Below, piece by piece: positions 10,177 to 17,274 of a stretch of DNA of 43,636 nt (position 1 is the first letter of the stretch; each line of letters opens with the position of its first letter). The stretch covers positions 1 to 43,636 of the forward strand of contig VEQZ01000008.1 in the NCBI GenBank assembly GCA_018882975.1, read 5' to 3'. The stretch comes from Rhodocyclaceae bacterium. GTDB lineage: Bacteria; Pseudomonadota; Gammaproteobacteria; Burkholderiales; UBA3065. The notes under the pieces were generated by a model. That model worked only from the letters and a program-made list of their open reading frames with translations. It made no database searches and was not told the origin of the DNA. Both the position numbers and the translations under genes were made by a program.

Positions 10177-11814
10177 TCAGGTGTGGTATGCGCCGCCATC
10201 GCGCGTGTCACGCACCAGCAGCAGGCCGATCACAAAGGTCATCATGGCGATGATGATCGGGTACCAGAGGCCCTTGTAGATGTCGCCGGTGGCCGCCACG
10301 ATGGCGAACGAGGTGGCCGGCAGGAAGCCGCCGAACCAGCCGTTGCCGATGTGGTACGGCAGGCTCATCGAGGTGTAGCGGATGCGCGCCGGGAACAGCT
10401 CCACCAGCAGCGCCGCGATCGGCCCGTAGACCATCGTCACGTAGAACACCATGACGAACAGGATGGCGATGATCAGCGGTTTGTTCATGGTGGCCGGGTC
10501 GGCCTTGTCCGGATAGCCGGCGGCCTTGAGTGCCGCGGCCATCTCGGCTTTGAAGCGGTCGGTCTCGGCCTTGGCGTCCTCAGCCTTGCCATCGTAGGAC
10601 TTGACCACCGTCTCGCCGACCTTGACCTCGGCAGTGGCCCCATAAGGTAGCGGCTGGTTCTGGTAGCTGATGCCGCCCTTGGCGAGAAACTCCTTGGCCA
10701 CATCGCAACTGCTGGTGAACTTGGCGGTGCCGGTCGGGTTGAACTGCAGCGAGCACTGACCCGGGTCGGAGAACACGGTGACCGGGCTCTTGGTTTGCGC
10801 GTCGGCCAGCGCCGGGTTGGCGGCGTGCATCAGCGCCCCGAACAGCGGGAAGTAGGTCAGCGCAGCGATCAGGCAGCCGCTGAGGATGATGTGTTTGCGG
10901 CCGATCTTGTCGGAGAGCCAACCGAAGAAAACGAAGAACGGCGTGGCCAGGATCAGCGCGGTGGCGACCATGATGTTGGCAGTCGGGCTGTCGACCTTGG
11001 CCATCTTCTCGAGGAAGAACAGTGCGTAGAACTGGCCCGTGTACCAGACCACGCCTTGGCCGGCGGCGGCGCCGAACAGTGCGATCAGCACCACTTTGAG
11101 GTTGCGCCATTCGCCGAAGGACTCGCCGAGCGGGTTCTTGGAGCCCTTGCCCTCGGCCTTCATGCGCTGGAACACGGGCGACTCGGCCAGTTGCAGGCGG
11201 ATCCACAGCGAGACCAGCAGCAGCAGCACCGAGACCAGATAGGGCACGCGCCAGCCCCAATCCTTGAAGGCGTCCTCGCCCAGATAGGTCCGCGTACCCA
11301 AGATCACCAGCAGGGCGAGCATCAGGCCGCCGGTGGCGGTGGTCTGGATCCAGCTGGTGTAAAGGCCGCGGCGACCGTCGGGCGCGTGCTCCGCCACGTA
11401 AGTCGCGGCGCCACCGTATTCACCGCCCAGCGCCAAGCCCTGCAGCAGGCGCAGGCTGATGAGGATGATCGGCGCAGCGATGCCGATGCTGTGGTAACTC
11501 GGCAGCAGGCCGACCAGAAAGGTCGATGCGCCCATGATCAGGATGGTGATGAGGAAGGTGTGCTTGCGCCCGACCAAGTCACCCAGCCGACCGAACACGA
11601 TGGCGCCGAAGGGCCGCACGGCAAAGCCGGCGGCAAACGCCAGCAGCGTGAAGATGGTCTTGGTCGATGCATCCAGCGGCGTGAAGAACTGGTCGGCGAT
11701 GATCAGCGCCATGACGCCGAACAGGTAGAAGTCGTACCACTCGAAGACGGTTCCCAGTGCCGAGGCGAAGATGACCTTCTTCTCTTCGCCGCTCATTGGC
11801 CGATGTTGCGTCAT
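10177..11814 (-). CDS. MHS-family MFS transporter (ProP-like) with a large periplasmic insert
   Basis: A 545-residue major facilitator of the metabolite:H+ symporter type. The N-terminus shows SALGTVFEWYDFYLFG and AVRPFGAIVFGRLGD (MFS motif between helices 2 and 3), followed by RLLQGLALGGEYGGA. A repeat of the motif, GWLSDKIGRKH, starts the second half. Between it and the last four helices lies a hydrophilic insert of about 110 residues (roughly 329-445) containing two cysteines (C354, C370). MHS proteins carry dicarboxylates, citrate, betaine, proline and similar compounds; the substrate here is not evident. A good GGAGG site precedes the ATG. The gene stands alone, with its own terminator. 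Confidence 0.87.
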   Translation of the reverse strand: MTQHRPMSGEEKKVIFASALGTVFEWYDFYLFGVMALIIADQFFTPLDASTKTIFTLLAFAAGFAVRPFGAIVFGRLGDLVGRKHTFLITILIMGASTFLVGLLPSYHSIGIAAPIILISLRLLQGLALGGEYGGAATYVAEHAPDGRRGLYTSWIQTTATGGLMLALLVILGTRTYLGEDAFKDWGWRVPYLVSVLLLLVSLWIRLQLAESPVFQRMKAEGKGSKNPLGESFGEWRNLKVVLIALFGAAAGQGVVWYTGQFYALFFLEKMAKVDSPTANIMVATALILATPFFVFFGWLSDKIGRKHIILSGCLIAALTYFPLFGALMHAANPALADAQTKSPVTVFSDPGQCSLQFNPTGTAKFTSSCDVAKEFLAKGGISYQNQPLPYGATAEVKVGETVVKSYDGKAEDAKAETDRFKAEMAAALKAAGYPDKADPATMNKPLIIAILFVMVFYVTMVYGPIAALLVELFPARIRYTSMSLPYHIGNGWFGGFLPATSFAIVAATGDIYKGLWYPIIIAMMTFVIGLLLVRDTRDGGAYHT

Positions 11815-12090
11815 GATTCCTCCGTGCGGGGCGTTATGGTTTTAGGCCGCAGGCGGATGGACGATGCCCCCGCGCATGGCAGGGGCATTGTGCGGGACGG
11901 GGTGGATTGCGTCTAGTTGAGCGGCACCTTATCGCGCTACCTCGAACTCGGGAGACCAATCTCTACGTCGCCATTGCCCCACCGGCCGATGTTGGAGATA
12001 TCGCGGCACAGACCTCTGGGGTCTTCCATCTCGTAATGAAGTCTGTTGCGCATCTGCAAGGAGATGCAACCGCCCCCAAGGGCCTGCTCG
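11815..12090. other. Intergenic region between the MHS transporter and ychF
   Basis: About 276 bases with no supported gene. It must hold the minus-strand promoter of the transporter and the 3' end of the ychF transcript. I see a hairpin with arms ATGCCCC/GGGGCAT near 11864-11890 and a small stem (GCATCT/AGATGC) near 12051-12068, neither with a following T run. Short frames here have no homology character. Confidence 0.4.
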
Positions 12091-13182
12091 TCAGACGTTA
12101 AACAGAAAATTCATCACGTCGCCGTCTTTGACCACGTAGTCCTTGCCTTCGGCGCGCATCTTGCCGGCCTCCTTGGCGCCGTGTTCGCCGCCGTGCGCGA
12201 CAAAATCCTCAAACCCGATGGTCTGGGCGCGGATGAAGCCTTTCTCGAAGTCGGTGTGGATGACGCCGGCGGCCTGCGGCGCGGTGTCGCCCTTGTGGAT
12301 GGTCCACGCGCGCACTTCCTTGACCCCGGCAGTGAAGTAGGTCTGCAGGCCGAGCAGGTCATAGCCGGCGCGGATCAGGCGGTTGAGGCCCGGCTCCTCG
12401 AGCCCCAGATCGGCCAGAAAGGCCAGCCTGTCCTCGTCCTCGAGGTCGGCCAATTCGGCCTCGAGCTTGGCGCACAGGGCGACCACCGGCGCGCCCTCTT
12501 TGGCGGCGAACTCACGCAGCCGGTCGAGAAAAGGGTTGTTCTCGAAGCCGCTCTCGTCGACATTGCCGACGTACATGGCCGGCTTGATGGTGAGCAGGCA
12601 CAGCGGCTTGACCAATACCTTCTCGTCGTCGGACAGCGCCAGCGTACGCGCGGGGCGGCCTTCGTTGAGGTGCGGCACCAGTTTCTCCAGCACCGCGACC
12701 AGCTTCTGCGCTTCCTTGTCGCCCGACTTGGCTTTCTTGCCGTCGCGGGCGATGGCTTTTTCGACACCGGCCAGATCGGCCAACGCCAGTTCGGTGACGA
12801 TGGTCTCGATGTCGGCGATCGGGTCGACGCGGCCGTTGACGTGCACCACGTTGGCGTCCTCGAAGCAACGCACCACATTCACGATGGCGTCAGTCTCGCG
12901 GATGTTGGCGAGGAACTGGTTGCCGAGACCCTCACCCTTGCTCGCACCCGCCACCAGACCGGCGATGTCGACGAACTCGACGATGGCCGGCTGGATCTTC
13001 TGCGGCTTGACGATGGCTGCCAGCTTGGCCAGTCGCGTGTCCGGCACCTCGACGATGCCGACATTCGGCTCGATGGTGCAGAACGGGTAGTTTTCGGCGG
13101 CGATGCCGGCCTTGGTCAGGGCGTTGAAGAGGGTCGACTTGCCGACGTTGGGCAGGCCGACGATGCCGCATTGGAGGCTCAT
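12091..13182 (-). CDS. ychF: Redox-regulated ribosome-binding ATPase YchF
   Basis: A 363-residue OBG-family P-loop protein. It has G1 [14 protein letters not shown] near the N-terminus, a switch region with [20 protein letters not shown], an ATP-specifying NVDE-type motif, and a C-terminal TGS-like domain ending [15 protein letters not shown]. YchF binds ATP rather than GTP and associates with ribosomes; it is linked to oxidative-stress response. In related genomes it follows pth directly on the same strand. Here about 1.6 kb of lower-GC sequence with two genes separates them. The start ATG at 13182 is the only one compatible with the conserved N-terminus. Confidence 0.96.
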
Positions 13183-13289
13183 AGTTAATGATTTCGGTCG
13201 GAAGTGTAAGTTTCAGGCAGCGCAAGCCAGTTGCAAGATGCGATTCAATGCATTGAGCCATCTGAAAAGGCCCCCAGGTAAACTTCTAT

Positions 13290-13949
13290 TCAAAAGCTTC
13301 CGGGCGAGCTGCCAGTGCGTATGGGAAAGGCGTGTATAGACAAATGGATCTGACTGCCGCTGCCTGATCGGAACGACCATTCTTGACCGCTGCGCTTCAG
13401 AGGCCTGAAGCGCCCCTCAATACTATTTGGAATTGCCATCGGAAACGAAATGCGTAGGCGGCGAACGACCGCCTGCATGGCGGGCAAGGCGTGGTACTGC
13501 TTCCAATGTTCTTTCATGCATGACATGGTATCGAATAAAAATCCTGTGAGGTCTCTTGATGCCAGTTCGGCGGTGAAGCCCTCGTGAAATTGACTCGAGC
13601 AAACGACCCCATGGCTTTCAGGGATTTGGGACAGGCCTTCGGAATAATCGTCAGTCGTCACGAATAGCGTTGATGATATTCCATGAGCCTCGACTTTTGC
13701 CTTAGCAAGAACCAAAGATGGATCGACAAACCGGAGTGCCTCTGCATCACCTACAAATACTTGAGTTCTTATTGGTTTCAAAAAATCAACTGTTATTGAA
13801 AAATCCAGAACATTTGGGGAAATCAGACGGCACAAAAACCCCGCAATGTCCGAGGAATTGACGTAGTTTCTCTCTCCTCTCAGAGCAAGGGGGAAGCTAT
13901 TCGCCGATGAATTGTTTATCAAAAAATTCTTCAATTGCTTTTGCTTCAA
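13290..13949 (-). CDS. Hypothetical protein of the low-GC islet, possible tandem hotdog fold
   Basis: About 219 residues that I do not recognise. Two stretches share a similar layout: a helix-like segment, then a beta strand with a Pro-turn (ITVDFLKPI near residue 52, RLRISFPMAIP near 165), then further strands. This resembles the helix plus five-strand pattern of hotdog proteins (thioesterases, acyl dehydratases), so a double-hotdog fold is possible, but this is inference from pattern only. The ATG at 13949 makes it overlap the hydrolase gene by 53 nt; the first 15-20 residues are the alternate frame of the hydrolase C-terminus, so a later start is possible. The two genes are probably co-transcribed. 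Confidence 0.55.
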   Translation of the reverse strand: MKQKQLKNFLINNSSANSFPLALRGERNYVNSSDIAGFLCRLISPNVLDFSITVDFLKPIRTQVFVGDAEALRFVDPSLVLAKAKVEAHGISSTLFVTTDDYSEGLSQIPESHGVVCSSQFHEGFTAELASRDLTGFLFDTMSCMKEHWKQYHALPAMQAVVRRLRISFPMAIPNSIEGRFRPLKRSGQEWSFRSGSGSQIHLSIHAFPIRTGSSPGSF

Positions 13950-14757
13950 TATTGCAGGAAAGGGACAGCGGGTGCCCGGCCATCGTAAAAACTTTTTCCT
14001 CGGAGTTCGGCAGGGAAGCGCCCATCTGTTCCGCGAAAAGCTTCCTCAGCCTGCTTTGTTCACCCCACATCGCCAGCGTTGGATTGGGCAGGCTCTCTTT
14101 TCCCGCAAGTATGTTGAATTCCTTAAGACTTTCGGGGTTCACGGGGCGCAAAGCGGGTTGCAATGCACCGTTGCGAGGTCGGAGTCGTCCGCGGATGAAT
14201 CGTCGTTTGGTCTCATTGTCGTCAAAGACAAGCGCTCTGAGAGGACTGTTGTCCCAAGCCATCTCAGCCGACTCCAGATTCAAAAAGGCTTTGCCGAGAA
14301 AGACTTGACATTCCTTTATGTAGGACCGCGTTTCTTCATCGAAGCCGAATGCCGGCTCCGCCAGGGCAAGGGGGATCGTTTTGAATTTTTCGTCGTCCCG
14401 GTTCTGGTACAGGCAGGCCAAACTCGCTATAGCCCCGCCCGAGGAGGTGAGCAGGCCAATCCGGAGTGTGGATTTCTTCAGAATGGCGCTCAATACCTTC
14501 AACTTCACGGCGAACGGCGGGACAGTGGAATTGGGTTCCGAATAGCCGCTTCCGGGAGCATCAAACGCAATCACCTTGTATGGCACGGCGCGCGCAGGGT
14601 GGCTGAGGCGTTCGGCCAGGAACGTGAAATCGGCAGAATTCCCGCCTGCCCCATGTAGGCACACGACCTGAGCAGATGGCTCAGGGGGAGACCAAGAACG
14701 ATAAAAAACTCGCTTGAGGTCTTTCGATGTATTGATAAAGCCTTCAGTGTACGTCAT
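13897..14757 (-). CDS. Alpha/beta-hydrolase of the low-GC islet
   Basis: A 286-residue alpha/beta-hydrolase fold protein. It has an oxyanion-type HGAGGN at residues 35-40, FDAPGSGYS at 65-73, and a nucleophile elbow TSSGG with Ser106 as probable nucleophile (Thr replaces the usual first Gly). A C-terminal His262 lies in AGHPLS. At the usual catalytic-acid position after strand 7 the motif is WGEQS (231-235), where relatives have an Asp at the last place; Glu233 or another acid may substitute. No signal peptide is present, so it is probably cytoplasmic. It lies between pth and an unrecognised gene in lower-GC DNA. The substrate is unknown; an ester, thioester or lactone is likely from the fold. 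Confidence 0.8.
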   Translation of the reverse strand: MTYTEGFINTSKDLKRVFYRSWSPPEPSAQVVCLHGAGGNSADFTFLAERLSHPARAVPYKVIAFDAPGSGYSEPNSTVPPFAVKLKVLSAILKKSTLRIGLLTSSGGAIASLACLYQNRDDEKFKTIPLALAEPAFGFDEETRSYIKECQVFLGKAFLNLESAEMAWDNSPLRALVFDDNETKRRFIRGRLRPRNGALQPALRPVNPESLKEFNILAGKESLPNPTLAMWGEQSRLRKLFAEQMGASLPNSEEKVFTMAGHPLSLSCNIEAKAIEEFFDKQFIGE

Positions 14758-14822
14758 CAGGCGCTGTCCAGTGTCTAAGGCAACCGAAGGATAACCCAGG
14801 GCTTGCCCGGATATCGCGTAGG

Positions 14823-15404
14823 TCAGCCTGTTGGCGAGTGGAGCTTGTTCATCGCGAGCTCAAAGTCGCCGCGTGCCATGTCCGGCCAGACGTCGAGCGC
14901 GCGGCGCATGGCGAGTTCTATGCCGTCTTCCTCCGCGCAGCTCGGGCGGTCGAGCACGAAGCCGGTCACCTTGGCTCGATCACCCGGGTGGCCGATACCG
15001 AGGCGCAGCCGCCAGTAGTCCTTGCCGAGTTGCACGTCGATGTCCTTGAGCCCGTTGTGTCCGCCGTGGCCGCCACCGACTTTAAGCCGTGCGGTGCCGG
15101 GGGGCAGGTCGAGTTCGTCGTGCACCACCAGCACCTCGCCCGGTGCGATCTTGTAGAAGCGCGCGAGCGCGCCTACGGCCTGGCCGCTGCGGTTCATGAA
15201 GGTGTCGGGCTTGAGCAGCCAGAGTTCGCCGGCCGGACCACGCACCTTGGCGACCAGACCGAAGAACTTGCCCTCGTTCGACCACTGGCCGCCCAGTTCC
15301 GCCGCCAGCTGGTCGACCCACCAGAAGCCGGCGTTGTGGCGGGTGGCAGCGTATTCGCGACCAGGGTTGCCGAGGCCGGCGACGAGGCGGAGCGGGGTGG
15401 GCAT
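14823..15404 (-). CDS. pth: Peptidyl-tRNA hydrolase
   Basis: A 193-residue Pth that cleaves peptidyl-tRNAs released prematurely from ribosomes. It shows [19 protein letters not shown] with the catalytic His in RHNAG, the [10 protein letters not shown] segment, and HDELDLPPG followed by [11 protein letters not shown]. Length matches the family. It lies downstream of rplY on the same strand; a terminator hairpin in the gap suggests partly independent expression. Its usual downstream neighbour ychF is displaced by the lower-GC islet. Confidence 0.96.
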
Positions 15405-15440
15405 GGTGCGTGCGGAGGAGTTGGACGGCTACGTTTGGCA

Positions 15441-15468
15441 AACAAAAAGCCCGTACGCGACGGGCTTT
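15441..15468 (-). terminator. Rho-independent terminator between rplY and pth
   Basis: A 9-bp perfect stem (15446-15454 with 15460-15468) with a 5-base loop. On the minus strand it is followed by a TTTTTGTTT-type tract, just after the rplY stop. It should end or attenuate rplY transcription before pth. A shorter T run (TTTCT) on the plus side makes weak bidirectional action possible. Confidence 0.8.
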
Positions 15469-15489
15469 CTGTCGGCTGCGTGACCGCGA

Positions 15490-16098
15490 TTACTGCGCTT
15501 GGCTTTCCGCGGCGCTCTCGTCGGCGCCACCGCGCGGTGCCATGCACACCGCCACCACGGCATTGTCGCCATGGCGCAGCGCGGTGCTTTCGACGCCTTC
15601 CGGCAGATTCAGGTCGGCGAGGTGCACCGATTGGCCGGCATTAAGGCCGCTCAGATCAACGGTGATGAACTCCGGCAGATTTTCCGGCAGACAGGCAATG
15701 TCGAGCTCCAAAACGACGTGGCTCATTTTGCCCCCCTGCAGCTTGACGCCCGGGGCGAGGTCTTCGCCGGTAAAGTGCAGCGGCACCTTCATGTGGATCT
15801 TCTCGCCGGCGGCGATGCGCTGGAAGTCGATGTGCAGGACCTGCTGCTTGAACGGGTGCATCTGGTAGTCGCGCAGCAGCACCGGCTCCTTCTTGCCGTC
15901 GAGCGACATGCTCAGCACCGAGGCGTGGAAGGCCTCTTCCTGAAGCGCGTAATAGAGAGCGTTGTGGTCGAGCTCGATGGCGACAGCATCCTTGTGTCCG
16001 CCATAGACGATGCCCGGCACCTTGCCCGTACGACGCAGGCGGCGGCTCGCTCCGGTGCCCTGCGTGGTGCGGTTGAGTGCGATGAATTCGATGGTCAT
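15490..16098 (-). CDS. rplY: 50S ribosomal protein L25, long (CTC) form
   Basis: A 202-residue L25/TL5/CTC-type ribosomal protein that binds 5S rRNA. The N-terminal L25 domain includes [18 protein letters not shown], and the second, beta-rich CTC domain includes [15 protein letters not shown] and [16 protein letters not shown] short Glu/Ala-rich tail ends the protein. The long form is the usual one in betaproteobacteria, unlike the 94-residue E. coli L25. A GGGAG site precedes the ATG. It lies between prs and pth on the same strand, the conserved order. Confidence 0.96.
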
Positions 16099-16147
16099 TT
16101 GAATCTCCCTGACTGCATGTGGACTGCGGTGAGTACTGCTTGCGAAA

Positions 16148-16169
16148 CCCCGGCCGCGACCAGCCGGGG
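16148..16169 (-). terminator. Weak hairpin between prs and rplY
   Basis: Arms CCCCGGC (16148-16154) and GCCGGGG (16163-16169) form a 7-bp stem with an 8-base loop, followed on the minus strand by only TTT. It may be an attenuator or mRNA-stability hairpin rather than a full terminator. Confidence 0.35.
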
Positions 16170-16200
16170 GTGGGTGCCCTTGCGGGCGTCTGTCGGCGCG

Positions 16201-17151
16201 CTACTCGGTGAACAGCGAGCTGACGGAATCTTCGTTGCTGATGCGGCGGATGGTTTCGGCCAGCAGGTCGGCACACGAGAGTTGCAGGATGCGGCCGCAG
16301 GCCTCGCCGGCCGGCGACAGCGGGATGGTGTCGGTCACCACCAGCTGGTCGAGGTGCGAGCGGCTGACGCGCTCGATGGCCGGTCCCGACAGCACCGGGT
16401 GGGTGGCATAGGCCAATACCTTGGCGGCGCCACGCTCCTTAAGGGCGGCTGCGGCTTGGCACAGCGTGTTGGCGGTGTCGACCATGTCGTCCATGATCAC
16501 GCAGGTGCGGCCCTCGATCTCGCCGATGATGTGCATCACCTCGGCCACGTTGGGGCGCGGCCGGCGCTTGTCGATGATGGCGAGGTCGCAGCAGAGTTGC
16601 TTGGCGATGGCACGGGCGCGCACCACGCCGCCGACGTCGGGAGACACCACGACGAGGTCGGGGTAGGACTGCTGCTGCAGGTGCTTGAGCAGCACCGGCG
16701 TGGCGTAGATGTTATCGACCGGGATATCGAAGAAGCCCTGGATCTGGTCGGAGTGCAGGTCCATGGTCAGCACGCGGTCGACACCGGCGCTGGACAGCAT
16801 GTTGGCCACCAGCCGCGCCGAGATGGCGACCCGCGCCGAGCGCGGGCGGCGGTCCTGCCGCGCATAACCGAAGTAGGGGATGGCGGCGGTGATGCGCCCG
16901 GCCGAGGCGCGCCGCAGCGCATCGACCATGATCATCAGTTCCATCAGGTTGTCGTTGGTCGGCGCGCAAGTCGACTGCAGCACGAACACGTCCTTGCCGC
17001 GCACGTTCTCGAGCAACTCGACCATCACCTCGCCGTCGGAGAAGCGGCCTACCTGCGCGCGACCGAGTGCGATCCCGAGGTTCTTCGCCACCGCCGAGGC
17101 CAGCAACGGGTTGGCGTTGCCGGCAAACACCATCAGGGATTCAAGAGACAC
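16201..17151 (-). CDS. prs: Ribose-phosphate pyrophosphokinase
   Basis: A 316-residue PRPP synthetase that makes phosphoribosyl pyrophosphate from ribose 5-phosphate and ATP, feeding purine, pyrimidine, His, Trp and NAD synthesis. It shows [18 protein letters not shown], the flexible-loop segment [28 protein letters not shown], and the PRPP-binding loop [14 protein letters not shown]. Length and motifs are standard. The start is a GTG at 17151 preceded by GGAG, giving [13 protein letters not shown]. tRNA-Gln and ispE lie just upstream on the same strand. Confidence 0.96.
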
Positions 17152-17199: not shown

Positions 17200-17274
17200 T
17201 GGCTGGGGAGGTAGGGATCGAACCTACGAATGCCGGAATCAAAATCCGGTGCCTTACCACTTGGCGACTCCCCA
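17200..17274 (-). tRNA. tRNA-Gln (anticodon TTG)
   Basis: A 75-nt cloverleaf on the minus strand. The acceptor stem TGGGGAG pairs fully with CTCCCCA, the anticodon loop TTTTGAT carries TTG, the T arm is GTAGG-TTCGATC-CCTAC, and the CCA end is encoded. It lies between ispE and prs, a placement conserved in betaproteobacteria, and is probably processed from their shared transcript. Confidence 0.97.

Follow-up and report, generated by a model that had tools for sequence, protein, structure and literature searches.

A low-GC segment with two reading frames lies between pth and ychF

The window analyzed here, a stretch of 43,636 nucleotides from a Rhodocyclaceae bacterium, carries on one strand prs, rplY, pth, two further reading frames, and ychF. 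The identities of rplY and prs, like those of the two flanking genes, are backed by Pfam. The two frames, termed gene 1 and gene 2, lie in the same orientation in the 1640 bases that separate pth from ychF (Table 1), a segment that we refer to as the islet. Its GC content is 0.518 as compared to 0.672 for the whole window, and the lowest 1-kb GC windows of the entire stretch start at positions 13001 (0.509) and 13501 (0.498). The same deviation was seen in the third codon positions, with GC3 values of 0.603 for gene 1 and 0.505 for gene 2 as opposed to 0.814 to 0.905 in six neighboring genes (ychF, pth, rplY, prs, a gene for an MFS transporter, and a GHMP kinase gene taken for ispE). These measurements bear out the sequence-only reading, which had described a low-GC islet of two same-strand genes at this position and had proposed a sliding-window check of its composition.

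The two frames, of 286 and 219 codons, overlap by 53 nt. Of 1000 dinucleotide shuffles, 1 equaled the longest open frame in the islet, and 7 equaled that in the part downstream of gene 1; thus, both exceed the length expected by chance. Four further frames within the islet had no Pfam match at E ≤ 0.01. With respect to the borders, in all four congeners the match to pth stops at residue 190 or 191 (of 193), and the last codons of pth in the window are unlike theirs. Thus, the join is probably situated within pth, a few codons before its end, which would correct the upstream border. At the other end, an AAGGA-like sequence precedes ychF in each of the four congeners and is missing before ychF of the window.

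The earlier statement that no integrase or transposase is present also held. Neither the gene 1 nor the gene 2 protein matched a mobility gene in Pfam, NCBIfam, or PHROGs, and the four other frames had no such match in Pfam. No tRNA is located at the islet, Rfam matched nothing within positions 11500 to 16500, and inspection of the repeat list yielded no convincing terminal repeat. The islet thus shows none of the marks of an integrative mobile element that were looked for, namely an integrase or transposase match, terminal repeats, and a tRNA target. A tRNA-Gln (anticodon ttg) is found at 17200-17274, upstream of prs; at about 2.4 kb from the islet, it is not an obvious integration target. 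Readings of the islet as an anti-phage defense system, as phage DNA, or as an RNA family were set aside; neither protein matched any PADLOC family at E ≤ 1, and PHROGs gave a single weak match, to gene 1.

Table 1. Features of the islet and its flanks, and genes found in the corresponding interval of other genomes of the order.
Feature	Position	Strand	Remarks
ychF	12091..13182	-	Downstream flank; Pfam-confirmed
Low-GC islet between ychF and pth	13183..14822	.	No counterpart in four congeners
Gene 2 (P0002), orphan frame	13290..13949	-	219 codons from TTG; no family
Gene 1 (P0001), divergent α/β hydrolase	13897..14757	-	286 aa; Pfam PF12697 and PF00561
pth	14823..15404	-	Upstream flank; Pfam-confirmed; last codons diverge from congeners
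Pseudouridine synthase in pth-ychF gap	L121:2882-3715		
Chemotaxis receptor in pth-ychF gap	L134:2604-4220	other strand	
Acyltransferase in pth-ychF gap	L141:476-1729		
248-aa frame in pth-ychF gap	L127:742-1485		No Pfam match

The islet is missing from sister species, and other lineages carry other genes in the same interval

The ychF gene is present in all five genomes of the genus, own included, and the copies of the congeners are 93 to 96% identical to that of the window. In the four congeners, ychF starts 12 to 74 nt past the end of the pth match; the two genes overlap or abut in three of them (L018, L020, and L022) and are separated by a longer spacer in L019. Neither islet protein had a match at E ≤ 0.001 in the four congeners, and the islet DNA, searched in the five genomes of the genus, matched only its own. 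Two of the four congener assemblies are only 79% and 82% complete, and the pth-ychF junction is present in all four. The islet is thus probably a species-level insertion, missing from every one of the four congeners. In the congener G001 (L022:1348-2431), ychF matches in pieces, with residues 1-230 and 251-363 aligning separately, which would fit a broken frame or an assembly error.

The comparison was extended to 30 genomes besides the own one, comprising the four congeners and 26 others of the order. The 26 loci are the best-scoring ychF matches from the 59 of 60 genomes that have ychF, and the sample leans to closer relatives. Distances were counted from the point where the pth match stops and not from the end of the gene. 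In 17 of the 30 genomes, ychF starts no more than 151 nt from the pth match (four of four congeners and 13 of the 26 others), while three further genomes have spacings of 361, 825, and 1041 nt. The remaining ten had no pth within the 1.5-kb flank, and a search of extended upstream DNA located it at about 1.4, 1.9, and 7.6 kb in three of them; in the other seven, pth was not found within 9 to 10 kb of ychF. The 26 genomes outside the genus are therefore divided into 13 with ychF within 151 nt, 6 with a larger distance, and 7 without pth within 9 to 10 kb. The earlier view that the block is normally contiguous consequently applies to the four congeners, where the two genes are neighbors, but to just half of the other genomes of the order.

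Four of the wider gaps likewise hold extra genes (Table 1). This cargo is mutually unrelated, and none of it gave a tblastn match to either islet protein. Thus, the genes received into the pth-ychF interval differ from lineage to lineage in the order.

Gene 1 encodes a divergent α/β hydrolase lacking the usual acid residue

Gene 1 matched the Pfam profiles PF12697 (Abhydrolase_6, E 6e-11) and PF00561 (Abhydrolase_1, E 5.5e-10). The PF12697 match scores 43.9 bits against a cut-off of 26.3 and aligns residues 31-266 with positions 1-208 of the 217 in the profile; the PF00561 match also covers residues 31 to about 265. By these profile matches, gene 1 is a member of the very large and well-known α/β hydrolase superfamily. 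In an alignment with ten distant homologues, TSSGG at residues 104-108 (Ser105) and GH at 261-262 (His262) coincide with the Ser and GH motifs of all ten, while the glycine ahead of the motif is not conserved. We take the aligned Ser, His, and Asp motifs to be the catalytic ones of α/β hydrolases. The usual acid site reads Ser235-Arg236 in gene 1, whereas nine of the ten homologues carry Asp there (five in the second column and four in the first); in the remaining homologue, L006, Asp is missing as well. Gene 1 thus shares with α/β hydrolases an above-cut-off profile match, a nucleophile-elbow-like TSSGG, and a C-terminal GH, but differs from most of its aligned homologues in the acid residue. 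A substitute acid such as Glu134, picked out by eye, could take its place. The hydrolase may be active, or the missing Asp may mean that it is not.

Among near-full-length matches from the class and phylum samples, the best, L041, is 28% identical to gene 1. NCBIfam listed ten families, and gene 1 scored far below the cut-off of each; PHROGs gave one weak match to an esterase/lipase (E 8.5e-4). Searches for a second copy in genomes, genome_contigs, viral_contigs, plasmids, and phages brought up just generic hydrolases for gene 1, for example matches at E ≤ 0.001 in 37 of 100 genomes (own included).

Gene 2 is an orphan frame, and the pair was found nowhere else

The start of gene 2 is uncertain, with no ATG before codon 142 and no clear ribosome site upstream of the possible TTG starts. 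Searches of Pfam, NCBIfam, PHROGs, and PADLOC at an E limit of 1 returned nothing. When the two parts of the protein were searched in Pfam at an E limit of 10, only DUF4904 (0.12) and DUF446 (0.16) appeared, and PDB sequences gave nothing better than E 1.3. Judged by its open length in the shuffles, gene 2 is probably coding or has been so. Its codon-model score per codon is 0.046 as compared to 0.119 for gene 1, and its halves score 0.074 and -0.021. One antisense frame with nine stops outscores it (0.081), and thus composition by itself does not prove that gene 2 is coding. The gene may be decaying.

Each islet protein was searched in sets of 100, 369, and 398 genomes, which overlap and include the own genome, as well as in genome_contigs by peptide patterns, viral_contigs, plasmids, and phages. 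For gene 2, there was no credible match outside its own genome, only matches at the level of chance, and none in plasmids and phages. In the class sample of 369 genomes, seven matches at E ≤ 0.01 fell outside the own genome, while about 3.7 were expected by chance. Over all genome sets, the sole row at E ≤ 0.001 besides the own genome (8e-4) runs antisense to another long frame. Thus, the pair was seen nowhere else in the sets searched. Recurrence of the two proteins in other contexts had been proposed as the mark of a functional module, and with no second copy, such a module is unsupported.

The identity of gene 2 was pursued along two lines. One would make the islet a real functional pair, in which the α/β hydrolase acts on acyl groups together with a partner of the hotdog fold resembling thioesterases or dehydratases. 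We consider this reading unlikely, although several observations point in its direction. Two single-sequence structure models of gene 2 suggest two repeats of a helix followed by strands, an order similar to that of hotdog thioesterases (4HBT_3, PF13622, and relatives), but their confidence is low (mean pLDDT 39.8 and 41.6). Among the 18 VIA-align rows listed, seven, representing four distinct proteins with Z of 2.0 to 2.4, are thioesterases: three by title, one as another entry of one of these proteins, and three as entries for PA5185, which we take to be a hotdog thioesterase. However, four unrelated rows (Z 2.5 to 2.8) outrank them, and their alignments scatter 66 to 71 residues across both halves of the model. 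Foldseek found nothing at E ≤ 0.001, and no thioesterase or dehydratase title occurs among the 50 rows listed per search. At the sequence level, PF13622 frames collected from 30 loci (29 frames, of which four above 400 aa were dropped) were divided into a profile of nine long (220 to 400 aa) and one of 16 short (120 to 219 aa) proteins. The score of residues 1-110 of gene 2 against the 16-protein profile was equaled in 6 of 3000 shuffles (2346 were reported and the rest counted as lower), which is weak because nine profile tests were made. The whole protein was equaled in 23 of 3000 shuffles with this profile and in 137 of 3000 with the nine-protein one, the first half in 34 of 3000 with the latter, and the second half gave no signal with either. 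Pfam contained no hotdog match for gene 2 at E ≤ 10. Thus, the likeness amounts to a weak profile signal in the first half without a significant sequence or fold match, and a hotdog fold, first noticed by eye and then examined with profiles and models against the PDB, was not accepted. The alternative that gene 2 derives from a short-chain dehydrogenase (SDR) gene and is a relic truncated on insertion is very improbable. It arose because, in four of the 26 other class genomes matching at E ≤ 0.1, the match fell on Pfam-confirmed SDRs in the same region of the frame, and a profile of those four scored 18.8 bits on gene 2, with 5000 shuffles reaching 8.8 at most. However, the four sequences had been chosen by their similarity to gene 2 itself, and an unselected profile of 27 SDRs (30 frames, of which three above 400 aa were dropped) gave no signal; we therefore dropped the SDR relic. 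Pfam SDR models likewise had no match on gene 2, and the near-chance number of matches in the class sample also speaks against it. The SDR motif is YxxxK; gene 2 has YVNSS at the site of YVA[AS]K in the selected SDRs.

In L038:83-2419, L039:7578-9836, and L040:6063-8395, we observed a trio consisting of a small frame, an SDR, and an AMP-binding ligase. The small frame resembles an acyl carrier protein by eye and has no Pfam match at E ≤ 1e-5. In L039 and L040, the trio sits among genes that, also by eye, look like those for surface polysaccharides.

Origin of the islet

The best reading of these data is that the islet is acquired or lineage-restricted cargo, consisting of a hydrolase gene and one orphan frame. 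Specifically, a foreign or lineage-restricted segment of about 1.64 kb probably entered close to the last pth codons, in this species alone, and separated pth from ychF. The case for transfer is built on composition and on absence in relatives, because no donor or close homologue of the islet was found in genome_contigs searched by peptide patterns or in plasmids. The same lack of a donor would fit an islet that dates back to the ancestor of the genus and has since disappeared from the four congeners. This scenario is very improbable, as it needs a loss in all four, in three of which pth and ychF overlap or abut, and leaves the composition of the islet unlike the rest of the window. We regard an artefact of assembly or binning, by which foreign sequence was joined into the contig, as the least probable of all. 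The assembly is in 106 contigs and the islet is of unusual composition, but the order of the flanking genes is as in the congeners, and two independent false joins near gene ends would be needed. An elaboration of the insertion reading, in which a two-gene acyl-hydrolysis module made up of a hydrolase with a displaced catalytic acid and a hitherto unrecognized hotdog-like protein family moved into the translation-linked pth-ychF transcript and is co-expressed there, appears only marginally more credible than the ancestral islet.

Under the favored reading of inserted cargo, gene 1 would be expressed by read-through from the rplY-pth transcript. This is suggested by the same-strand order and by the lack of a match to a sigma-70-type promoter in 12900-15200, where shuffles average 0.7; the stretch from pth to gene 1 contains no terminator-like match. 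Early in gene 2, in the orientation of the genes, one terminator-like site occurs at 13855-13839 and may be due to chance, as shuffles average 2.5 sites. If real, it would work against transcription continuing into the remainder of gene 2 and on to ychF. The product of gene 1 would be a serine hydrolase that acts on a small ester or acyl substrate by means of Ser105, His262, and an acid elsewhere than at the usual position, and it would hydrolyze such a small molecule only if the missing acid is replaced. Gene 2 could be a partner that has diverged fast and is translated by coupling across the 53-nt overlap, or else a start-less, decaying gene. Translation of the gene downstream, ychF, may now be weaker or depend on other signals.

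The islet had been put forward as a candidate for a small undescribed system. This did not stand, since gene 1 falls into a very large known superfamily and gene 2 has neither a detectable relative nor a clear start; on present evidence, the islet does not reveal a new system. The proposed comparison of the pth-ychF interval among relatives supports an insertion of low-GC DNA, with islet protein and DNA missing from all four congeners. In a host with a small genome (1.95 Mb assembled), the locus provides a clean case of apparently recent foreign cargo splitting a translation-linked gene pair, with a short-junction counterpart in the sister species, and in several lineages of the order the space from pth to ychF has come to be occupied by unrelated genes.
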